Assembly: GCF_008629695.1 (NCBI RefSeq)
Contig: NZ_VWSH01000003.1
Span: 124,001 to 188,000, forward strand
Direction: 5' to 3'
Length of the DNA: 64,000 nucleotides
From: Taibaiella lutea
GTDB taxonomy: Bacteria; Bacteroidota; Bacteroidia; Chitinophagales; Chitinophagaceae
A model generated the notes under the pieces. The model was not told the origin of the DNA. It saw nothing but the letters and a program-made list of their open reading frames with translations, and made no database searches. Within the stretch, counting starts at the first letter, position 1. Each line of letters starts with the position of its first letter. The position numbers were made by a program, and so were the translations under genes. Below, piece after piece: positions 23,868-63,496 of the stretch.

Positions 23868-24779
23868 TTAACGTGACCACATGTCATCATCTTTTTCACG
23901 CAAAGTCTCTGTTACTTCACCGCCTTGTTCTAAACCTCTAAGTCCTTTTTCAAAGGTTCTTCCGTCAGGATTATCAGCAGTAGATTTAATCACATAACTT
24001 GCAAAGTATCTGCCATCAAAATAATCTGCCCAAGACATTCTGTGTACATCATTTTGTGGGTTGTAAACTTCATAGTTAACCAATAATTTTCTTAATTGGT
24101 CATAGTTCAACCAGAACATCGGAGATGAACCAACATATAACCCTGTGCTTTCACTTTTGATATCGACCATAGGTGCAATTCCCACGATACGAACAACCAT
24201 ACGACCTAAGTTTCTGTCAAAAATCCAGTCTTCTTTAATACGATATTGAGTAACGGAGTTGATGTCAAATTCTTTATGAATCACTTTCAATTCCATTTCA
24301 CCGGTTTCGATATTAGGTACTTCTATCGTATCTGTAGTTCCACCTATTTGTTTTTCAAGGCTCGGCATATCCAATGCAGTAGTAAACCTGTCATCGATGT
24401 TACTGTAAGCATTTACTTTCCCTTTTCTTACAGCATCAATTAAGATCTCAATAAACGCACCACCACCAGAATACTCGTCACCTTCAAAGATAAATGCCTG
24501 GTTTTGCTTTTGCCTAACATCAATCACACGCCAAACTCTTCTTTTCCATGCAACATCAATTTCTCTGATTGAAGTCTGATCCAATGATCTGTTAACGTGA
24601 GGGACAGCGTCAATTGCTCCGTCCTTTACCAGAGAAGGTTTCCAATAAGCATTTACAGCATCAGTGTTTGGAGTCGTTGATGCAGGATCAACTGTGCCAG
24701 GTCCTTGTGCAAAAACCGCGCCGGAACACAACACAATGCTTGCAGCAAAACTATATTTTTTCAAGATATTCATCTTCAT
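23868..24779 (-). CDS. gldN: Gliding motility/T9SS protein GldN (PorN)
   Basis: 303 residues. A periplasmic component of the type IX secretion core that in studied species forms a ring complex with GldK at the outer membrane. A signal peptide ends at about residue 24 (GAVFAQ). Family features: DIAWKRRVWRVIDVRQKQN, RIKEDWIFDRNLGRM, VRIVGIAPM, PMFWLNYDQLRKLLVNYEV and MSWADYFDGRYF. It is the last gene of gldK-L-M-N, 22 bp after gldM, and is followed by a terminator. Confidence 0.95.
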   Translation of the reverse strand: MKMNILKKYSFAASIVLCSGAVFAQGPGTVDPASTTPNTDAVNAYWKPSLVKDGAIDAVPHVNRSLDQTSIREIDVAWKRRVWRVIDVRQKQNQAFIFEGDEYSGGGAFIEILIDAVRKGKVNAYSNIDDRFTTALDMPSLEKQIGGTTDTIEVPNIETGEMELKVIHKEFDINSVTQYRIKEDWIFDRNLGRMVVRIVGIAPMVDIKSESTGLYVGSSPMFWLNYDQLRKLLVNYEVYNPQNDVHRMSWADYFDGRYFASYVIKSTADNPDGRTFEKGLRGLEQGGEVTETLREKDDDMWSR

Positions 24780-24801
24780 TAGTTTATTATAAAGAGATCA
24801 A

Positions 24802-26343
24802 TTAATTTAAAGTTAGAACAATCGGGTTAATAGAGCGGACTTTTTTATCAGGCCCAACTGCTTTAATACTTTCAAAGAAAACTCTATCACCAGGTCTTGC
24901 TCTTTGCATAACTGCTTGGCAAGCCTCGTTAAATCTGTTACCGTTAACATCAATTACCTGCAAATCGCCTACTCTTGGTGCGTACATAAATCTAAAGGCA
25001 GTAACTTTAAATTGTGTTTCAAAATCGAAGTTTTCCAATTTAGCAATAACACCTGGTTGAGCTTTGAAAACAGCGGCATTAATAAGACCACTAACCTTAT
25101 TACCCACAGTAGCGGTAGGGTCAGGAATCAACTTCACACGAATTTCACCACCACCAATTTTGGCCGTTGCACCTCCGGTACGGGATTTACCCATAATTGC
25201 CCATTGAAGCTTGCCAACAGTTGTAACATTAGCAATATAATGACCTTTACCGGTTGTAGACAGATTAGCGCCAGGAACTGACAATGATACATCTTCAATA
25301 TTATAACCTGATGCTGATAGTGTAATCGGATTATCAACTCCGATATACATTACATTCATTTTATCCAGTTGAAGAGATGCTCCTGCTGTACCAACCATGT
25401 AATTGAATTCGTAAGGGAAACTTTCCATTTTTCCATTCAAAGGTACTGTAATTGCTCCTTTTCTGGTTTGCATACCAACACCAGCAGCTTGAAACTTCAT
25501 TGTACCAACACCATCTTTAACCTGAACACCTGGTCCCATATTTGTTACCATAGTCTTGTTATAGGCGGCAAGTATAATAGTTGCTTCAATTTCCTGTCCT
25601 ACTAATGCATAGCTGGTTTTAGGAGTTGCCACAGCAATAACGTTATCAAATTTCAATACTGCCGCATCCACTTGTCTCAATAGATTTTCTACTACTACAG
25701 ATTCAGAGTTCTTTACGTCATTCTTAAATTTAGACAACATTGCAATAGTAGCTACAACCGGAATATTGTGGAATGTTCCGAATGACCAATCCCCTGTCGG
25801 ATTTTCATCGCTCTTTTCAAGGTCAGTTAATTGGATTGGTAAATCTGCTTGTAAACTTGCTTTTGCAGTAGGATTATCAATCTGGTTAATTAAAAACGCT
25901 TTATAATCTTCTAATTTTTTACGTAAGGTAGCGCCTTCTTTTTCTTCAACAAAAAGCTTTGTTGAAACATCGATATTATCCAACCCTTTCAATTCTTGCT
26001 TACCATTACTTCCTGTCTCATAACCGCCGGATTTTTCAACTACCATTTTAGAAAGACCATCCAGATATGCCATCATCTTTTCAGCTTCAGCTTTAACAAG
26101 CAAAGCCTTTTCTCTTGGCTTTTCAGCTCTTTCTTTAGTTTCAGGATCTTTAGCTAAATCATCAAATGTTTTATAAAACTGCTGATTTTTACCATCAATT
26201 GAAGTAATTGATTTTTCAATACTTGTATTAATAGTCTGGAAAGCGGTAAGTACTTCTTTTGTAATATTTAGGGCAAGCATTGCTGTCAACACCAAATACA
26301 TGAGGTTGATCATCAACTGCCGGGGATCTTTAGGTAAAGCCAT
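24802..26343 (-). CDS. gldM: Gliding motility/T9SS motor protein GldM (PorM)
   Basis: 513 residues. Inner-membrane protein with one N-terminal helix (about 10-30, LMINLMYLVLTAMLALNITK) and a long periplasmic part. With GldL it forms the proton-driven motor that powers type IX secretion and gliding. The start MALPKDPRQLMINLMYLVLTAM is typical of the family. The C-terminal domain carries VGDLQVIDVNGNRFNEACQ and RPGDRVFFESIKAVGPDKK. It is 113 bp downstream of gldL in the same direction. Confidence 0.96.
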   Translation of the reverse strand: MALPKDPRQLMINLMYLVLTAMLALNITKEVLTAFQTINTSIEKSITSIDGKNQQFYKTFDDLAKDPETKERAEKPREKALLVKAEAEKMMAYLDGLSKMVVEKSGGYETGSNGKQELKGLDNIDVSTKLFVEEKEGATLRKKLEDYKAFLINQIDNPTAKASLQADLPIQLTDLEKSDENPTGDWSFGTFHNIPVVATIAMLSKFKNDVKNSESVVVENLLRQVDAAVLKFDNVIAVATPKTSYALVGQEIEATIILAAYNKTMVTNMGPGVQVKDGVGTMKFQAAGVGMQTRKGAITVPLNGKMESFPYEFNYMVGTAGASLQLDKMNVMYIGVDNPITLSASGYNIEDVSLSVPGANLSTTGKGHYIANVTTVGKLQWAIMGKSRTGGATAKIGGGEIRVKLIPDPTATVGNKVSGLINAAVFKAQPGVIAKLENFDFETQFKVTAFRFMYAPRVGDLQVIDVNGNRFNEACQAVMQRARPGDRVFFESIKAVGPDKKVRSINPIVLTLN

Positions 26344-26456
26344 CCTTTAAACTTTTTCTTATTGTTTAAATCTTTAACAAGGATTATAACAAAGCGTCAA
26401 CCACCTGAAATTATATCCGATTGCTATTTAATGAATAAAAATAATTGTGCTTTTTA

Positions 26457-27302
26457 TTAGCGTCCTTGCATTGCGCTCAGCATATTACCATAAATACTGT
26501 TCAATTGAGTCAGATTCTTAGATAACATAGCAATTTGCTCTTTTGCATTTACTGCATCTGTAGCACTTGAAGCCATTGCATCAGAAGCATTCACCAAATT
26601 GCTATAGAATTTATTCATTGCTTTCAAGTGATTGTTAGCATCTTGTAATTCTACTTCATAAATCTGATTTAATGAACCAAGATTTCTTGATAGAACCTGT
26701 ACCTGATCGTGGAATTGGGCAGTACTGTCAGCAGCATTGTTGAAAGATTGCATTGTACTTGTAGCACCGATGAAAGTATCTTTCATCTGACCTAAAGCAT
26801 CTGCAGCTTCACGAGCGCTTTGAGAATAAGAACCGGTTGCAGCTGTAACATCTGTAATATCTTTCATTTGATTTACAGTAGTATTGAAGCTTTGGAAATT
26901 ATCACTTAAACGTTTCAAATTAGCCGGATTCAAATTAGCTTCTTCTAACATTTTATCCATATGAGCAGTAGTGTTGCTGCTTGAAGCAGAAGAACCGATT
27001 GCTGCTGTAGGAGGTGTAAATTTCACACCTTTCTTGTAAGCTTCTACATGTGGGTTCTCATCCAGATTAGGATAATAACGTTCCCAATAGTAATCTTTAT
27101 GAGGAGGCAAAATACCTAATAAACAAAAGATAAATGCTTCTGTACACATACCAACTGTCAACATCAAACCTGCACCTGGCCAGTGTTGTAATTTAAAAAG
27201 CGCACCTAATAATACGACACCCGCACCTACACCGATGATAAGATTTTTAAGATATTTACCTTGCTTGGTTTCAAAAAACAAAGATATTGAGCCCATTTTC
27301 AA
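26457..27302 (-). CDS. gldL: Gliding motility/T9SS motor protein GldL (PorL)
   Basis: 281 residues. Cytoplasmic-membrane motor partner of GldM. Two hydrophobic helices lie at about residues 19-38 and 45-66 (LIIGVGAGVVLLGALFKLQHWPG, then LMLTVGMCTEAFIFCLLGI). GldL's essential membrane glutamate corresponds to the Glu in MCTEAF. The rest is cytoplasmic and helical (many Asn/Gln/Met, for example LGQMKDTFIGATSTMQ), ending LSAMQGR. It lies 64 bp after gldK. Confidence 0.95.
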   Translation of the reverse strand: MKMGSISLFFETKQGKYLKNLIIGVGAGVVLLGALFKLQHWPGAGLMLTVGMCTEAFIFCLLGILPPHKDYYWERYYPNLDENPHVEAYKKGVKFTPPTAAIGSSASSSNTTAHMDKMLEEANLNPANLKRLSDNFQSFNTTVNQMKDITDVTAATGSYSQSAREAADALGQMKDTFIGATSTMQSFNNAADSTAQFHDQVQVLSRNLGSLNQIYEVELQDANNHLKAMNKFYSNLVNASDAMASSATDAVNAKEQIAMLSKNLTQLNSIYGNMLSAMQGR

Positions 27303-27366
27303 AAATTGATTTTACGATTGATTGATTGAATTAATTTTTTATAAAGTCCACGCCACTAATGATAAA

Positions 27367-28647
27367 CTATCTTGAAGCTCTTCCCGGTTCGTTAGTTAAA
27401 GCACCTGCTACCTGAGTGTAAATACAACGGAAGCCGATATATGCTTTTGCAGTATCTGCATATTCATAATCTCTGTTGCTTACATTTAAGTAAGGCAAAG
27501 GATCTCTCCAGCTACCACCTTTTACAACAACTCTGCGTTGCCATGTAGGATCAGTTTCATTAAGTTTTGCTCTGATATCAGGATTGATGTCTGCGGTCAT
27601 GTTAACACTATATCCACCTTGAGAGTAAATAGAGCGTGTCCATTCTGCAACGTTACCTGACATATTATATAAACCGTAGTCATTAGGCCAGTATGCATTT
27701 GCACGTACTGTGTAAAGACCACCATCAGCAGAATAATCTCCGCGGTCAGGTTTGAAGTTTGCTAAGTAACAACCTTTTTGGTTCTGAGCATAAGGTCCGC
27801 CCCAAGGAAATGGAGATAATTGGCGGCCACCACGAGCTGCCCACTCCCATTGACTTTCGTCAGGTAAGCTGAATTCACCTTCAAAGTATAATTTTCTGCT
27901 TTCGCGGGCACCTTTCCATAATTGTGTACGCCAGTTACAGAATGCATTTGCCTGAATCCAGTTAACACCTACAACTGGATATTCATCAAAAGCGGAGAAC
28001 CAGTTATATTGACGGGCAATAGGTTCATTGTTAGAGTAAGCAAATTGCTTCACCCAAACAGTAGTATCCGGATAAACAGCAACAGTTTGTTTTGTATCGA
28101 ACGTAGAACGAGGTTGTCCCGGATTCATAATAGAAGCGGTCAAGTCGAACTGACGCACTACATACATATATTTTTTTACGTCCAATTCCTTCTTACCGGT
28201 TCCCGTTTGAGACGCATCAATATACATGCCGGCCAGTTGGTCTTGCACATCCGCATCGCTCCATTTTACTTTAGTGGACCAATCGATTTGTTGAGTACCA
28301 TCTTCGTTATCTTTAAACTCCCCTAATGTAGTTTTTGCAATAGAGTCACGAACCCAGTTGGTAAACTGACGATATTCAGCATTGGTAATCTCAGTAGCAT
28401 CCATGTAAAAACCAACCATATTATAGGTTCTCACAGGCGCATCCAAAGAATTCTCAATATCCTGATCGCTATATCCTGATTTCATCACACCGGAATTTAC
28501 ATAAACCATTCCAACCGGTGCAGGAGCCCTGTAATTAGTTCTGTTGCTATAGTCGCCTACTAACTGACCTTGCGAAGTAGGCTGCCCACAACTTGCTGCA
28601 AACATAGCCATCGCCACTGTGGCAATACTCAGGGAGAGTTGTTTCAT
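27367..28647 (-). CDS. gldK: Gliding motility/T9SS lipoprotein GldK (PorK)
   Basis: 426 residues from the ATG at 28647, chosen because it gives a compact lipoprotein signal (MKQLSLSIATVAMAMFAASC). In-frame ATGs at 28665 and 28683 would add 6 or 12 residues. The body is a formylglycine-generating-enzyme-like (SUMF1) fold: VGVNWIQANAFCNWRTQLWK, LPDESQWEWAARGG, YGLYNMSGNVAEW, VVKGGSWRDP, YIGFRCI. It anchors the GldK/GldN ring to the outer membrane. First gene of the cluster; no PorP/SprF gene is next to it. Confidence 0.95.
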   Translation of the reverse strand: MKQLSLSIATVAMAMFAASCGQPTSQGQLVGDYSNRTNYRAPAPVGMVYVNSGVMKSGYSDQDIENSLDAPVRTYNMVGFYMDATEITNAEYRQFTNWVRDSIAKTTLGEFKDNEDGTQQIDWSTKVKWSDADVQDQLAGMYIDASQTGTGKKELDVKKYMYVVRQFDLTASIMNPGQPRSTFDTKQTVAVYPDTTVWVKQFAYSNNEPIARQYNWFSAFDEYPVVGVNWIQANAFCNWRTQLWKGARESRKLYFEGEFSLPDESQWEWAARGGRQLSPFPWGGPYAQNQKGCYLANFKPDRGDYSADGGLYTVRANAYWPNDYGLYNMSGNVAEWTRSIYSQGGYSVNMTADINPDIRAKLNETDPTWQRRVVVKGGSWRDPLPYLNVSNRDYEYADTAKAYIGFRCIYTQVAGALTNEPGRASR

Positions 28648-28683
28648 CTTTGTGTTTTTTGTCATTGTTATTGCTTCAAACAT

Positions 28684-52274: not shown

Positions 52275-52302
52275 AAAAAGAACCGTGCAAAAGCACGGTT
52301 CC
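52275..52302 (-). terminator. Terminator of the type B sorting-domain gene
   Basis: On the minus strand GGAACCGTGC and GCACGGTT-C pair around TTTT and run into TTTTTATTT. Confidence 0.75.
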
Positions 52303-52327
52303 TGAATAACAATCAATCGTAAAATTC

Positions 52328-52717
52328 TTATTTCAAAAGGGTAACTGTACCCTTATAAGTTTCAATATTTCCGTCAGGATAGCCGATCTGAATGACATAA
52401 CCATAAACACCTACAGGTTGCGGCTGACCTTTATTTGTACCATCCCAACCCAGATTCGGATCTGTAGTTCTGAAAAGAATGGTTCCCCAACGATTAAAAA
52501 CTTTAAAGTCAATTATCTTTTCGTCTGTAATGTTTTTAATCTTAAAAAAATCATTCTGACCATCGTTATTAGGCGTAAACGCATTAGGAATTAATAATTC
52601 TTTACGCTTTACCGGGTCTGTATAACTTGCATCCGAGCGATATTCATTTTTTTGTGCAAATGAATTTATACCGCTGAATCCCATTAAAATTACTATCGCT
52701 ATAATAAATTTCCTCAT
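52328..52717 (-). CDS. Stand-alone T9SS type B sorting-domain protein (gliding-motility C-terminal domain)
   Basis: 129 residues. A signal peptide ends at about 21 (GINSFAQ). After ~20 residues the whole protein is a CHU_C-type domain: LLIPNAFTPNNDGQNDFFKI, FKVFNRWGTILFRTTD, GWDGTNKGQPQPVGVYGYVI and KGTVTLLK. This domain normally sits at the C-terminus of very large T9SS cargo (type B), where it needs a PorP/SprF partner. Here it is almost the entire protein. It follows the 1160-residue barrel protein by 116 bp on the same strand. Confidence 0.88.
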   Translation of the reverse strand: MRKFIIAIVILMGFSGINSFAQKNEYRSDASYTDPVKRKELLIPNAFTPNNDGQNDFFKIKNITDEKIIDFKVFNRWGTILFRTTDPNLGWDGTNKGQPQPVGVYGYVIQIGYPDGNIETYKGTVTLLK

Positions 52718-52833: not shown

Positions 52834-55800
52834 TTAGAAGTCGGTACCAAAAGATAAATACCAATGTGTTTTACCAACAATGTTTCTTGAATAATCAACT
52901 CTTGTAAAATAACCAAAAAGCAAAGTTCTTACTCCAAGACCATATCCCATGCAGATTCCGTTGTCATTAAAATTAGGGATATTTACCTGAATTACAGGTT
53001 GTTGTGCTGCGGTTTGACCATAATATACGTGATAAAAACGGTCAAAATTTTGTGCGTTCGGTAATACGCCTTCCCATGCAGAGCCAATATCTGTAAATGC
53101 TACCAATTGCAGATTTTTAAGGATAGAAGATTGAATGGCATTATGTGACAAAGTCGTAAACACAGGAAATCTGATTTCTCCGCTTGCTAAAGCATAAGTA
53201 TTACCGTTTCTCGCATTTTGATTATAGCCTCTCATACTTGTTGCCAAAGTCTGGAAAGCATAATCGTTATTTCCCGAAGGTGGCAGACTGCCATCGCTTT
53301 TAGGATTGATAGCATTATCAACACCACCCAAAAAGTACATTATTTTTTGCGGGCCGCCGGAATGGGCGCCTGCAAATCTGAATGCGGCAATCGTATTTTT
53401 GTAAATTTTCTGATAATATCTGAAATCTACTCCAATGTTATATAGTCCTGCAGGTTTATTATTGTCTTCCGGATTTCCGGTTAATGTATAAGGGTTGTTT
53501 GTATGAATTCTATAAAAATATTCAGCAAAGAATTTGTACCTCAATCCGTTATAAATATTCATTACAGGATTACGGGTATCATCATAAACAAACTCCGCAC
53601 GGCTGGTAGCCCAATATTGTTCTGTATTCGGCAACACCAAACCAATAGGGTCGATAGCTTTAATTATCATTCTGTCCTGTCTCAGGCCAAAGTCCAATCT
53701 GAAACTTTTCACTTTATCCAAAGGATAGCTGACACTACCCTGCACCATATTCATAACAGTTTTTCCCGGCTCATCAAAAGTTTGTCCGGAGCCATCAACA
53801 AAAGGATAAGTGTATTTGGTTTCCTGTCTTAAAAAGAGAATGGCCCAGTCAGTTCTTCTTCTGAAATTTTCGAACTGAAAAAAGGTAGTGTACCCTGAAA
53901 AATTAACAGGGATCCTTAAACCGCCTGTGAACCGGTAATCTTCCATCTTATCTGTAATACTTGCGGTAAGCATACCTGCAATAGATGGGTTTGTAAAACT
54001 TCCGCCGGTATTGTCGTATGATTGATATCTGCTTCCTACAATACTGTTATCTGCCCTTATACCAAAAAAATCGGGCTTGAAGGACAGGTAATATTTACGG
54101 GAACGAAGATCAATGAAAGAGCTATCCACATACAGGATTCGTTTGCCATCCAAAGTTCCTGTTGCAATATTTGCATTAGATGCCGTATTGTTATTGCCGG
54201 TATTAGCAGTTGAATTTGAAGTACTGTCGGCAGGTTTCCTGAGCGACATCATTTCAGCATATTTTTCAGATTCCGCATCCGGCGTAACTTTTGCCGAATC
54301 GGATGAATTTAAATCTCTTTTGGTATAAAATTCTCCCTGCTGCAATTCGTCTCCTGTTTTTATACGAAAAGATTCATCTTTTTGAAACAGATCGTTTTTG
54401 GTACTTAAATTGATGGGATTAGTAAAATTCGTTGCATTTTTTCGGGTAACGACACCGTCTATAAAGCTGATGGGCACAGGTTTTACAGGTATTGCATTTC
54501 CATCGGGAGCGGGCAATTCAATTTTATGAAACAATACTTCATAATTATCCTGTATCCTGATTACATCCGCAATTTTGCCGCTGGCCGGATTGTATTGCTG
54601 ATACAAAATATTCCTGCTGAAATTGGTCATAGGAACCGAGTATGCAGAATCCTGGTTATTTATGTTGCGCGCAAACTGTACAACATATCTGTTCGTTATG
54701 CCGAACTGATTGGAAAGATAGGCAAAATGATCAGGCCCGTAAGGAATAGGTTGTGTGATAGTTCCTTTCCTGTTATTGGTCAATTGCATTAAATCATAAC
54801 TCTTGGTAGTAGAATTATAGAAAAACACATTCATTAACCCGGCAGGCAGTTCATTAGGCAAAGGTTTGATATTCATATAAGGTTGCGGCCTGTTACTGAG
54901 GAATACCACACCTTTGCGCGAACCGCCGCTGACAAATACCGGCGCTTCATCATCCCATGCATCATCTGTAAGCTGATTAGTTCTGCCTCCTTTTAACCTT
55001 AGCTCGAATAAATCGCTCTGTCCGTTTTTTATTGCCGAAACAATAATCATATCATCATCCTCCATAAAGGTGAAACCCGTAATACGATCAAAACGTGTAG
55101 CAGGAATTTTAAAATCCTGAATCTTTCCCAGAACGGAATTATACACTCTTATACGAAGTTTATTCCTGTTTTTGAAAATAATACCAAATTTGAATCCGGT
55201 GTTGTTCCATGCAACCAACGGATAATCAGGATCATCCACATCCTTATGGTTTTTCACACCGCCGTTAACCAGTACGCTCGATTCACGTTTTGAAATACCG
55301 TTAATCGATTTTGTTTTTTCAAGTATTACCTGATATTCGCCGTATTTCCATTTTACATAAGCAATATCGCCTCCACGCGGGGAAACAGCAATATCTCTGA
55401 TGCGGCTTTCATCATGCTTAACCGTAATGGTCGTTAATTTGGAAGAAGTATCTATTGGGGCAAAAATCTGTTCTTCAAAAGCGTATCTTTCTTTATAAAA
55501 TCTGATAACAGAATCGGATGCAGTTTTGAGGTTCATGCCTATTGTAAGGCTCAAAGCCTTGTCGAGGCTGCTTTTTGTTTGGGTGAGATATAAAAGGTTC
55601 TTTACATTGTTATCGCCATATTTCACTGCAATAAATTTCCAAAAAGCCTTTCCCGCTACTTCGGGCTCTTGTTGTGCTATTTCATGGAAGTAGGTTTTTG
55701 GTTTAGCCAAAAGCAGATTCTTCCAGGTATTATCGTCATCTCCTGTCCAGCCGTCCACTACATAACCAATGTATCCTTCGGTAACCCAGGCATCCAAATC

Positions 55801-56316
55801 GAGCAGGACGGCATTTTTAACCATTTCTGTAATGTTTTCTCCAAACATCAATCTTTCCATTACCACTTTCGACATGCCTCTTCTCAACTGCCCTTTCAAA
55901 TCAGCGTGCTTTCCTGTAAAATAAATAACCAGTTTGTCGCCGACCAAATCCAATTTACCGGAAGGATTATCACTTTGAATTTGCAATTGTCCATTTAAAC
56001 CGATATTGCCCTGCTGGTAATCGTCAAAGCAATTGTAAAGAATGATATTTAATTTTTCAGGGAAAAGACCACCAAGCCTTTTCTCGATAGCAGCAATGTC
56101 CTGCTCGGCCTGTTCGGCTACAAACCTTGCCAGTTCTCTCCCGGACCTGTCATAATGGTAAATTTTAAAATGCTCTGCATCATAATATTTCCAATCGAAC
56201 CTTCTGTATTGCACTCTGCTTTGCCCAAATACTTCCAGATTGGTTTGAGCCTTGCCAATATAAAAAGTGCTCAAAAAAATCAGAAAGGATAAAAAGATTT
56301 TAAACCTGCTATTCAT
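52834..56316 (-). CDS. Large outer-membrane protein: pseudopeptidase, beta-propeller and Omp85-like barrel fusion
   Basis: 1160 residues. Signal peptide to about 23. Residues about 30-290 resemble a gluzincin peptidase in which the zinc-binding HExxH site is lost (RRGMSKVV at 145-152) while the W-x-x-E-G-x-x-x-Y element is kept (WVTEGYIGY, 177-185). Residues about 300-590 are a TolB-like WD40-type beta-propeller (IRDIAVSPRGGDIAYVKWKYGE; VVFLSNRPQ). A Ser/Thr/Asn-rich linker lies near 690-720. Residues about 740-1160 look like an Omp85/D15 barrel: YDDTRNPVMNIYNGLRYKF, an RGY motif at 1029-1031 followed by GEIRFPVF, and the end YLSFGTDF. Function unknown; the layout suggests a pore with a large periplasmic sensing or chaperone part. 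Confidence 0.82.
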   Translation of the reverse strand: MNSRFKIFLSFLIFLSTFYIGKAQTNLEVFGQSRVQYRRFDWKYYDAEHFKIYHYDRSGRELARFVAEQAEQDIAAIEKRLGGLFPEKLNIILYNCFDDYQQGNIGLNGQLQIQSDNPSGKLDLVGDKLVIYFTGKHADLKGQLRRGMSKVVMERLMFGENITEMVKNAVLLDLDAWVTEGYIGYVVDGWTGDDDNTWKNLLLAKPKTYFHEIAQQEPEVAGKAFWKFIAVKYGDNNVKNLLYLTQTKSSLDKALSLTIGMNLKTASDSVIRFYKERYAFEEQIFAPIDTSSKLTTITVKHDESRIRDIAVSPRGGDIAYVKWKYGEYQVILEKTKSINGISKRESSVLVNGGVKNHKDVDDPDYPLVAWNNTGFKFGIIFKNRNKLRIRVYNSVLGKIQDFKIPATRFDRITGFTFMEDDDMIIVSAIKNGQSDLFELRLKGGRTNQLTDDAWDDEAPVFVSGGSRKGVVFLSNRPQPYMNIKPLPNELPAGLMNVFFYNSTTKSYDLMQLTNNRKGTITQPIPYGPDHFAYLSNQFGITNRYVVQFARNINNQDSAYSVPMTNFSRNILYQQYNPASGKIADVIRIQDNYEVLFHKIELPAPDGNAIPVKPVPISFIDGVVTRKNATNFTNPINLSTKNDLFQKDESFRIKTGDELQQGEFYTKRDLNSSDSAKVTPDAESEKYAEMMSLRKPADSTSNSTANTGNNNTASNANIATGTLDGKRILYVDSSFIDLRSRKYYLSFKPDFFGIRADNSIVGSRYQSYDNTGGSFTNPSIAGMLTASITDKMEDYRFTGGLRIPVNFSGYTTFFQFENFRRRTDWAILFLRQETKYTYPFVDGSGQTFDEPGKTVMNMVQGSVSYPLDKVKSFRLDFGLRQDRMIIKAIDPIGLVLPNTEQYWATSRAEFVYDDTRNPVMNIYNGLRYKFFAEYFYRIHTNNPYTLTGNPEDNNKPAGLYNIGVDFRYYQKIYKNTIAAFRFAGAHSGGPQKIMYFLGGVDNAINPKSDGSLPPSGNNDYAFQTLATSMRGYNQNARNGNTYALASGEIRFPVFTTLSHNAIQSSILKNLQLVAFTDIGSAWEGVLPNAQNFDRFYHVYYGQTAAQQPVIQVNIPNFNDNGICMGYGLGVRTLLFGYFTRVDYSRNIVGKTHWYLSFGTDF

Positions 56317-56506: not shown

Positions 56507-57004
56507 ATGAGCGACACTAACCAATTTCACGATCAGACTTTTGATGAGTTCACACCCAAAAAGAAAATGCCCGACATGCTGAATGTCTTAACAATCCTGA
56601 CATTTATAGGTTCGGGCGTCGGACTCATTACGTACATATACAATTATGTGACGGTTTGCGGCAGCATTACAAAAATGACGGATGCCATGAGCAAATTCGG
56701 AGAGGACAGCACTATGGGCAAAATGATGAAGGACTCTATTGAAATAGCATATAAATCATGCGACCTGAAAATGCCTTTGCTTATAATGAATCTTGCATGT
56801 GTCATATTATGCGTTGTTGGCGCAATACTGATGCGTAAGCTGTCGAAAAGTGGCTTTTATGTTTATCTTATCGGCGAACTTGTAGGGCCGGTAGGTGTAA
56901 TGATTATGGTAGGCATGTCTTTTGGAATAATGGCTATAGTCGGAATTCTTATTCCTGTGGTTTTCTTAATCCTGTATGGTACTCAGCTTAAACACATGAA
57001 GTAG
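56507..57004 (+). CDS. Membrane protein, function unknown
   Basis: 165 residues with a polar start (MSDTNQFHDQTFDEFTPKKK) and about four hydrophobic segments (MLNVLTILTFIGSGVGLITY; MPLLIMNLACVILCVVGAIL; GFYVYLIGELVGPVGVMIMV; SFGIMAIVGILIPVVFLILY). Two cysteines (VCGS, KSCD) flank the first loop. It resembles small four-helix membrane proteins common in Bacteroidota but no family name can be given. Divergent from the 1160-residue protein, with a terminator after it. Confidence 0.75.
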   Translation: MSDTNQFHDQTFDEFTPKKKMPDMLNVLTILTFIGSGVGLITYIYNYVTVCGSITKMTDAMSKFGEDSTMGKMMKDSIEIAYKSCDLKMPLLIMNLACVILCVVGAILMRKLSKSGFYVYLIGELVGPVGVMIMVGMSFGIMAIVGILIPVVFLILYGTQLKHMK

Positions 57005-62230: not shown

Positions 62231-63496
62231 ATGGTAAAAAGATTGGTATTATTATTGTTCACAGGGTTGTTTTGCTGCAATTTCATGTATGCTGCAAAAT
62301 TATACATTCCCATGAGTGCCGACAATCAGGGCAATCATCTGAAAGCCTACGGTATTGCTTTCCTTGCATTGAAAGCGGGCATGACGGTAGATTGGCTATT
62401 GAATTATGATGGCGGTGCGTTTGCAATGGACCAAAATGCAGAGATAGAAAAAACCTGCAAGCTTCGCGGTGTTGACTATAATATTATGGCAGATGTCCAG
62501 TATGACGGCATCCTGCAAAAAATTGCTGATCCTGATTTTAACGGCGATGTTATAAAACTGGAAAAAGCGCCCAAAATTGCCGTTTATACACCTAAGTCAA
62601 AACTTCCCTGGGACGATGCGGTAACCATGGCATTGGAGTATGCAGAAATTCCTTACGATAAAATTTATGATGATGAGATACTGGATGACAAATTACATGA
62701 ATATGACTGGCTACATCTGCATCATGAAGACTTTACGGGACAGTATGGCAAATTCTGGGGGGCATACCGTACTGCGTCATGGTATATTGAAGATGTAAAG
62801 AATCAGGAGGCAATGGCTGCAAAGCATGGTTTCAAAAAGGTATCTCAATTGAAACTGGCGGTTGCTAAAAAAATACAGGGTTTTGTGGCAGGCGGCGGCT
62901 ATTTATTTGCCATGTGCAGCGCAACCGACAGCTATGACATTGCATTGGCTGCAGATGGGGTAGATATTTGCGATGTACCGTTTGATGGTGATGCGCCGGA
63001 CCCGCAGGCACAGCAAAAGCTGAATTTTGCTCCCTGTTTTGCTTTCAAAGATTTCACGCTCGAAAAGAACCCATATCAGTACGAATATTCGGACATTGAT
63101 AATACGCTGTTCAGAAAAGTACCTATGACTACCGATTACTTTACGTTATTTACCTTCTCTGCAAAATTTGATCCGGTGCCTACTATGCTTTGTCAAAATC
63201 ATACGACTACCATCAAGGGATTTATGGGACAAACTACTGCTTTCAGAAAAGAGGTTTTGAAAAGCAGCGTATTGGTCTTAGGCGAAAATCAGGCTGCAAA
63301 CGAAGCACGTTATATTCACGGCGAGTTTGGCAAAGGTACTTTCACATTTTATGGCGGTCATGATCCTGAAGATTATCAACACCAGATTGATGATCCGCAT
63401 ACAGATTTATCACTGCACCCCACTTCTCCCGGATATCGTTTAATTTTAAACAACGTACTTTTTCCGGCAGCAAAAAAGAAACCAAGAAAAACATAA
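62231..63496 (+). CDS. Secreted conserved Bacteroidota protein, often labelled asparagine synthetase B, function unproven
   Basis: 421 residues. A signal peptide ends at about 21 (NFMYAA). The mature protein starts KLYIPMSADNQGNHLKAYGI and has KIAVYTPKSKLPWDDAVTMA, YDWLHLHHEDFTGQYGKFW, GGGYLFAMCSATDSYDIALA and GKGTFTFYGGHDPEDYQHQ. The GGYLFAMCSATDS segment resembles the nucleophile elbow of class I glutamine-amidotransferase-like folds. Related proteins are often annotated as asparagine synthetase B, but the enzyme's ATP-pyrophosphatase domain is absent, so the name should not be trusted. Followed 7 bp later by a tiny membrane protein. Confidence 0.78.
   Translation: MVKRLVLLLFTGLFCCNFMYAAKLYIPMSADNQGNHLKAYGIAFLALKAGMTVDWLLNYDGGAFAMDQNAEIEKTCKLRGVDYNIMADVQYDGILQKIADPDFNGDVIKLEKAPKIAVYTPKSKLPWDDAVTMALEYAEIPYDKIYDDEILDDKLHEYDWLHLHHEDFTGQYGKFWGAYRTASWYIEDVKNQEAMAAKHGFKKVSQLKLAVAKKIQGFVAGGGYLFAMCSATDSYDIALAADGVDICDVPFDGDAPDPQAQQKLNFAPCFAFKDFTLEKNPYQYEYSDIDNTLFRKVPMTTDYFTLFTFSAKFDPVPTMLCQNHTTTIKGFMGQTTAFRKEVLKSSVLVLGENQAANEARYIHGEFGKGTFTFYGGHDPEDYQHQIDDPHTDLSLHPTSPGYRLILNNVLFPAAKKKPRKT

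Follow-up and report, generated by a model that had tools for sequence, protein, structure and literature searches.

A POTRA-less Omp85 protein of Taibaiella lutea with a degenerate peptidase domain and a TolB-like propeller

The window, a stretch of 64,000 nt from a contig of Taibaiella lutea, harbors an open reading frame for a protein of 1160 amino acids (P0001), to which the Pfam search assigned no domain. What kind of protein is this, and what could it do in the outer membrane? A reading of the sequence alone had seen a peptidase-like domain without its zinc site, a propeller and an Omp85-like barrel. It had suggested a distinct outer-membrane assembly or export device, possibly related to the type IX secretion system (T9SS). 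The first part of this suggestion remains plausible.

Domain architecture and barrel of P0001

The open reading frame of P0001 covers exactly positions 52834-56316, starts with ATG and ends with ...TDF. The sequence-only reading had given the same span; the strand, which it did not give, is minus. The gene (52834..56316, minus strand) encodes an outer-membrane protein of the Omp85 family, as judged from the reading frame and the matches of its homologues. All motifs cited by that reading were confirmed in P0001 at the expected places: W177-V-T-E180-G181-Y-I-G-Y185, YDDTRNP at 911, GLRY at 924, RGY at 1029-1031, GEIRFPVF at 1046 and the terminal F1160. Residues 1-24 form a signal peptide (56245..56316, minus strand; MNSRFKIFLSFLIFLSTFYIGKAQ) with a predicted cleavage site. 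It has no lipobox cysteine, and P0001 contains cysteines at positions 96 and 1122 only.

Pfam returned no match for P0001, Omp85 included, and no meaningful match for 30 order-level relatives. The only hit in NCBIfam was a weak match to TIGR02800 (TolB propeller). Sequence matches of P0001 to monobodies in the PDB were rejected as chance. A PDB profile search with profile A1 also gave chance matches only, and a scan of viral contigs yielded a single unhelpful fragment.

The domains were assigned through homologues with an intact zinc site (catalytic homologues). BLASTP of P0001 against these was collinear over almost the full length (e.g., residues 4-1160 with E 2e-58 for homologue L081). The catalytic homologues match PF07676 (PD40, down to 3e-32) and PF13485 (Peptidase_MA_2, down to 3e-15), and in two of them the C-terminal part matches PF01103 (Omp85) above the curated cut-off (8e-9 and 7e-8). 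Peptidase_MA_2 covers about residues 66-290 of the homologues, and PD40 and TolB cover about residues 290-560.

On this basis P0001 consists, from the N-terminus and always on the minus strand, of a Peptidase_MA_2-like pseudopeptidase domain (residues 25-290, 55447..56244), a TolB/PD40-like beta-propeller (residues 291-600, 54517..55446), a poorly conserved, variable linker rich in N, S, T and D (residues 601-732, 54121..54516), and an Omp85 barrel (residues 733-1160, 52837..54120). The homology of the N-terminal domain to PF13485 runs through the collinear homologues with HELVH, and P0001 alone stayed below scoring. The propeller is indicated by the TIGR02800 match, by the PD40 and TolB matches of the homologues and, weakly, by Foldseek, which had TolB as top matches for a full-length AlphaFold model built from nine rows of alignment (mean pLDDT 40). 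No match to POTRA (PF07244) was obtained in P0001, in the order-level relatives or in nine diverse homologues. The domain matches of the homologues, the profile and the fold support the earlier view of a dead gluzincin-type domain, a WD40/TolB-like propeller and an Omp85 barrel without POTRA.

The comparison of the barrel with Omp85 families had been proposed as a check and gave a clear result. In hhalign, a profile of 82 barrel sequences scored 97% against an Omp85 profile that is TamL-type at least in its own-genome rows, while the controls reached 0.3% (FadL) and 0.2% (reversed). PF01103 also found the same-order orthologue in genome G037 (E 1.8e-4) and a paralogue in the genus (2e-4), both below the cut-off. 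The AlphaFold model of the barrel is of low confidence (mean pLDDT 46, pTM 0.51). Its best PDB matches were almost all BamA, and the proteins of F. johnsoniae and P. gingivalis were among them; Z reached 16.6 over 289 residues. DSSP counted about 14-15 strands on this low-confidence model (pLDDT 46), which aligned to BamA barrels end to end. Barrels of the Omp85 superfamily have 16 strands and a loop-6 motif (V/I)RG(F/Y).

Conservation of the loop-6 motif had been set beforehand as one half of the test of the Omp85 assignment, strand number being the other, and RG[YF] was found in 81 of the 82 orthologues. The pattern [LVIMF]RG[YFW] was kept in 81/82 sequences of the dead clade and in 28/33 of the catalytic clade. 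In the family alignment the motif of P0001 is split into G997-G998 and R1029-G1030-Y1031 (53224..53328, minus strand). The distance from GG to RG[YF] is about 31 residues in the long family versus the usual 4-5; a family-specific insertion thus splits the motif. GG lies near RG in two compact paralogues (GGSWDLRGW). The C-terminal barrel of P0001 is homologous to BamA, TamA and TamL and belongs to the Omp85 superfamily.

The zinc site and its phylogeny

The loss of HExxH was borne out, as no such motif is present anywhere in P0001. In gap-free alignments the HELVH of the homologues corresponds to R146-G-M-S-K150 (55867..55881, minus strand). HExxH together with the third-ligand glutamate of WxxEG was present in 33/33 sampled homologues from outside the class Bacteroidia, which carry sequence like HHELVHAVLNDMFYGG...PLWFNEGLAEY (HELVH, for instance, in L112 and L121). 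HExxH was found in 0/82 homologues from Bacteroidia, again by gap-free alignment. In this dead clade the first histidine is replaced by A, Q, E, S or R, the catalytic glutamate mostly by G, and the second histidine by R, E, K or Q.

The motif W-x-x-E-G-x-x-x-Y, which had been described as retained, is indeed present in P0001, but this lineage does not conserve E180 as a zinc ligand. Among the 82 sequences its column holds D (23), E (18), Q (12), N (11), K (10) and others. Because the third-ligand column is this variable, WVTEG (residues 177-181, 55774..55788, minus strand), located by the alignments, is a relic of the WxxEG third-ligand motif.

A tree calculated without the active-site columns (115 sequences) showed a single zinc-site change with support of 100. 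The same single change, again with support of 100, was seen in a tree of 67 sequences that included extra paralogues. HExxH is the norm in Peptidase_MA; on this ground, rather than on a rooted tree, the direction of the change is taken as loss and not gain. The change is best read as one ancient loss, probably at the base of the lineage of class Bacteroidia, after which the domain was retained. Mean identity within the dead clade was 38.8% for the barrel, 35.5% for the pseudopeptidase, 31.1% for the propeller and 15.4% for the linker; synonymous divergence was saturated, within the genus too. With a conservation on a par with the remainder of the protein, the dead domain is an old pseudoenzyme and not a domain in decay.

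Distribution, paralogues and neighboring genes

Matches to the family were found in 54/59 relatives, most of which have full-length orthologues. The family was matched in 263 of the 296 genomes of class Bacteroidia (239 with E < 1e-20) and in 146/198 genomes of the phylum sample. About 19% of the sampled Bacteroidia genomes lack the family or have a weak match only, so the protein is not a core factor everywhere in the class. One in-frame stop (TAA, TGA) was seen in the otherwise long copies G028:C2:146945-148117 and G468:C31:84421-86013, which are possibly pseudogenes or assembly errors.

Two TamL and three other Omp85 proteins are present in the genome that contains the window, and P0001 is therefore additional to them. 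A second, strongly diverged copy of the family in this genome (G000:C1:595511-598453; L060:5470-8457) has 996 amino acids and no HExxH, and its relatives in the genus sit together on a long branch within the dead clade. Some Bacteroidia possess separate catalytic paralogues of about 1000 amino acids (L215, L217), in which HELVH and WM(V/I)EGxAEY are intact and which group with the catalytic clade. The window genome gave no Peptidase_MA_2 match over the cut-off.

Downstream of the P0001 gene, at a distance of about 117 bases, lies a gene for a CHU_C protein of 129 amino acids (52328..52717, minus strand; PF13585, E 2.7e-20), CHU_C being a type IX secretion signal. It is possibly a second cistron with the P0001 gene in the genus. 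It is followed by a terminator-like hairpin (52278..52303, minus strand), a consensus match only. Among the compared loci, this adjacency was common to the same-genus locus L204 only. In 30 loci, all of the dead clade, a divergently transcribed gene for a protein of metallo-beta-lactamase fold lies upstream of the family gene (e.g., L034:4171-4812, L199, L200, L201, L057). These neighbors were recognized by an N-terminal motif, and one was confirmed by Pfam. No such gene lies beside the P0001 gene.

The window also contains a cluster of the gldK-gldL-gldM-gldN type (T9SS motor and periplasmic ring) at 23868-28683 on the minus strand, about 25 kb from the P0001 gene; GldM was confirmed by PF12081 (G000:C3:149675-150256) and the others were read from the sequence. 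Contig JANLJF010000039.1 (L034) bears the label of an Azovibrio restrictus MAG and has gldM and gldN as well as a family gene. It closely resembles the contig of L037, labelled uncultured Bacteroides, and is probably mislabelled or mis-binned. Two further window proteins, a membrane-like one of 165 amino acids (56507-57004) and one of 421 amino acids (62231-63496), had no Pfam match at E 0.001; the latter is 86% identical in a same-genus genome.

Relation to known systems and proposed function

With a TolB-like propeller N-terminal to an Omp85 barrel and POTRA absent, P0001 has the known architecture of the WD40-Omp85 subfamily, defined in 2014 (Heinz and Lithgow, PMC4104836). These authors likened the subfamily to BamA fused with BamB (PMC4104836). 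The main text of their paper describes neither a peptidase domain nor catalytic and dead forms or a split loop-6 (PMC4104836). In our literature search, which covered few subscription papers, we found no description of a peptidase fused to WD40-Omp85, of its single loss or of the split loop-6. Under the searched terms, recent studies on BAM and TamL in Bacteroidota do not mention a P0001-like protein (PMC12611786, PMC12045153, PMC12578637).

P0001 resembles TamL and BamA in its barrel, by profile and by fold. Unlike them, it is not a lipoprotein, no POTRA was found, and an insertion separates GG and RG[YF]; the TamL copies of the window genome are separate from it. The N-terminal domain is homologous to proteins that match the Peptidase MA family PF13485, but in contrast to these gluzincins (HExxH...WxxEG) it has lost the zinc ligands and is fused to a propeller and a barrel. 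Metallophosphatase-Omp85 proteins ('Metallo') also combine Omp85 with an enzyme-like N-terminal domain, although the N-terminal domains are unrelated. A fusion of this kind with 1208 amino acids (metallophosphoesterase, PF00149) is encoded in the window genome at G000:C1:480403-484030 (L208).

We read P0001 as a POTRA-less outer-membrane protein of the WD40-Omp85 kind that occurs across most Bacteroidota. The peptidase-type domain and the TolB-like propeller would face the periplasm, and the flexible linker connects them to the barrel. The presumed ancestral form is the catalytic one that persists in the sister classes. It would have coupled a protease with an insertase or translocase of the outer membrane, and its role may have been quality control of outer-membrane proteins, similar to BepA at the BAM complex. 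BepA is an M48 peptidase of E. coli that acts at BAM as a separate soluble protein with TPR and is not fused to a barrel. The likeness is one of analogy only, to a zinc peptidase in the service of outer-membrane protein assembly. After the loss of the zinc site, the dead domain may have been retained in a binding or chaperone role, and the pseudopeptidase and propeller would act as POTRA by bringing unfolded substrates to the barrel.

The best explanation of the whole is a POTRA-less Omp85 factor for assembly or quality control, in which a fused protease was turned into a binding module; we give this an even chance. A more detailed version is tentative and has somewhat poorer prospects. Here, a single event at the base of Bacteroidia would have turned a protease fused to an insertase into a receptor without protease activity, and most of the class would have a branch of outer-membrane protein assembly that Pfam does not see. 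The pseudopeptidase and propeller would replace POTRA in substrate capture, and the split loop-6 would alter the lid of the barrel.

The main rival is surface display, in which the barrel exports its own peptidase and propeller through the pore by means of the long linker, so that this part acts or binds outside. The variable N/S/T-rich linker of about 130 residues between propeller and barrel would fit this. Both ends of Omp85 barrels are periplasmic, however, and neither a cleavage site nor a passenger-type signal was seen in P0001. Surface display was proposed for the patatin-Omp85 protein PlpD (PMC4104836), and one propeller subunit of the Bacteroidota BAM lies in the extracellular part of the complex (PMC12578637). 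We regard surface display of P0001 as doubtful, if well worth keeping in view.

P0001 could instead be a component of T9SS, with the pseudopeptidase and propeller as a receptor for its cargo. This would be in line with the adjoining CHU_C cargo gene in the genus of the window, with gldMN 2.7 kb away in locus L034, and with the missing zinc site in the same class in which GldM occurs. The suspected T9SS link was not supported, however, when the occurrence of both was compared. GldM was present in 28/33 Bacteroidia genomes without the family. Outside the class, about 112 of the roughly 149 genomes in the phylum sample had the family but no GldM match (hand-derived counts). GldM matches in this sample were confined to class Bacteroidia, though divergent GldM elsewhere could have been missed. 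Among the compared loci the CHU_C neighbor was restricted to the genus, and the coincidence of the dead form with the GldM-bearing class is a single event that proves nothing. Since family and GldM dissociate in both directions, P0001 is not an obligate part of T9SS, and a T9SS component was rejected in this strict form. In the wider form of a cargo receptor it is improbable.

That the N-terminal domain still works, as a peptidase with another metal geometry or as another enzyme, might be suggested by its conservation, which is about that of the barrel, and by the retained E180 and W177, but every ligand column varies freely in the clade (D, E, Q, N or K for the third ligand), which makes it very improbable. 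It is just as hard to believe that P0001 is a common pore or adhesin of the outer membrane whose barrel bears a superficial likeness to Omp85: the missing Pfam Omp85 match of P0001 itself and the abnormal GG..RG[YF] spacing would agree with this, but it is contradicted by the profile, the Pfam matches in homologues and the fold, all of which indicate Omp85.

Recent studies of how Bacteroidota build their outer membrane center on BamA and TamL, while about 80% of the sampled Bacteroidia genomes carry a member of the P0001 family, and Pfam assigns no domain to P0001 itself. Returning to the assembly or quality-control factor that we favor, the natural catalytic and dead forms are one change apart on the tree. 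Comparing them would show cleanly what an Omp85 machine gains from a protease, and the same pair would also test what can stand in for POTRA domains.
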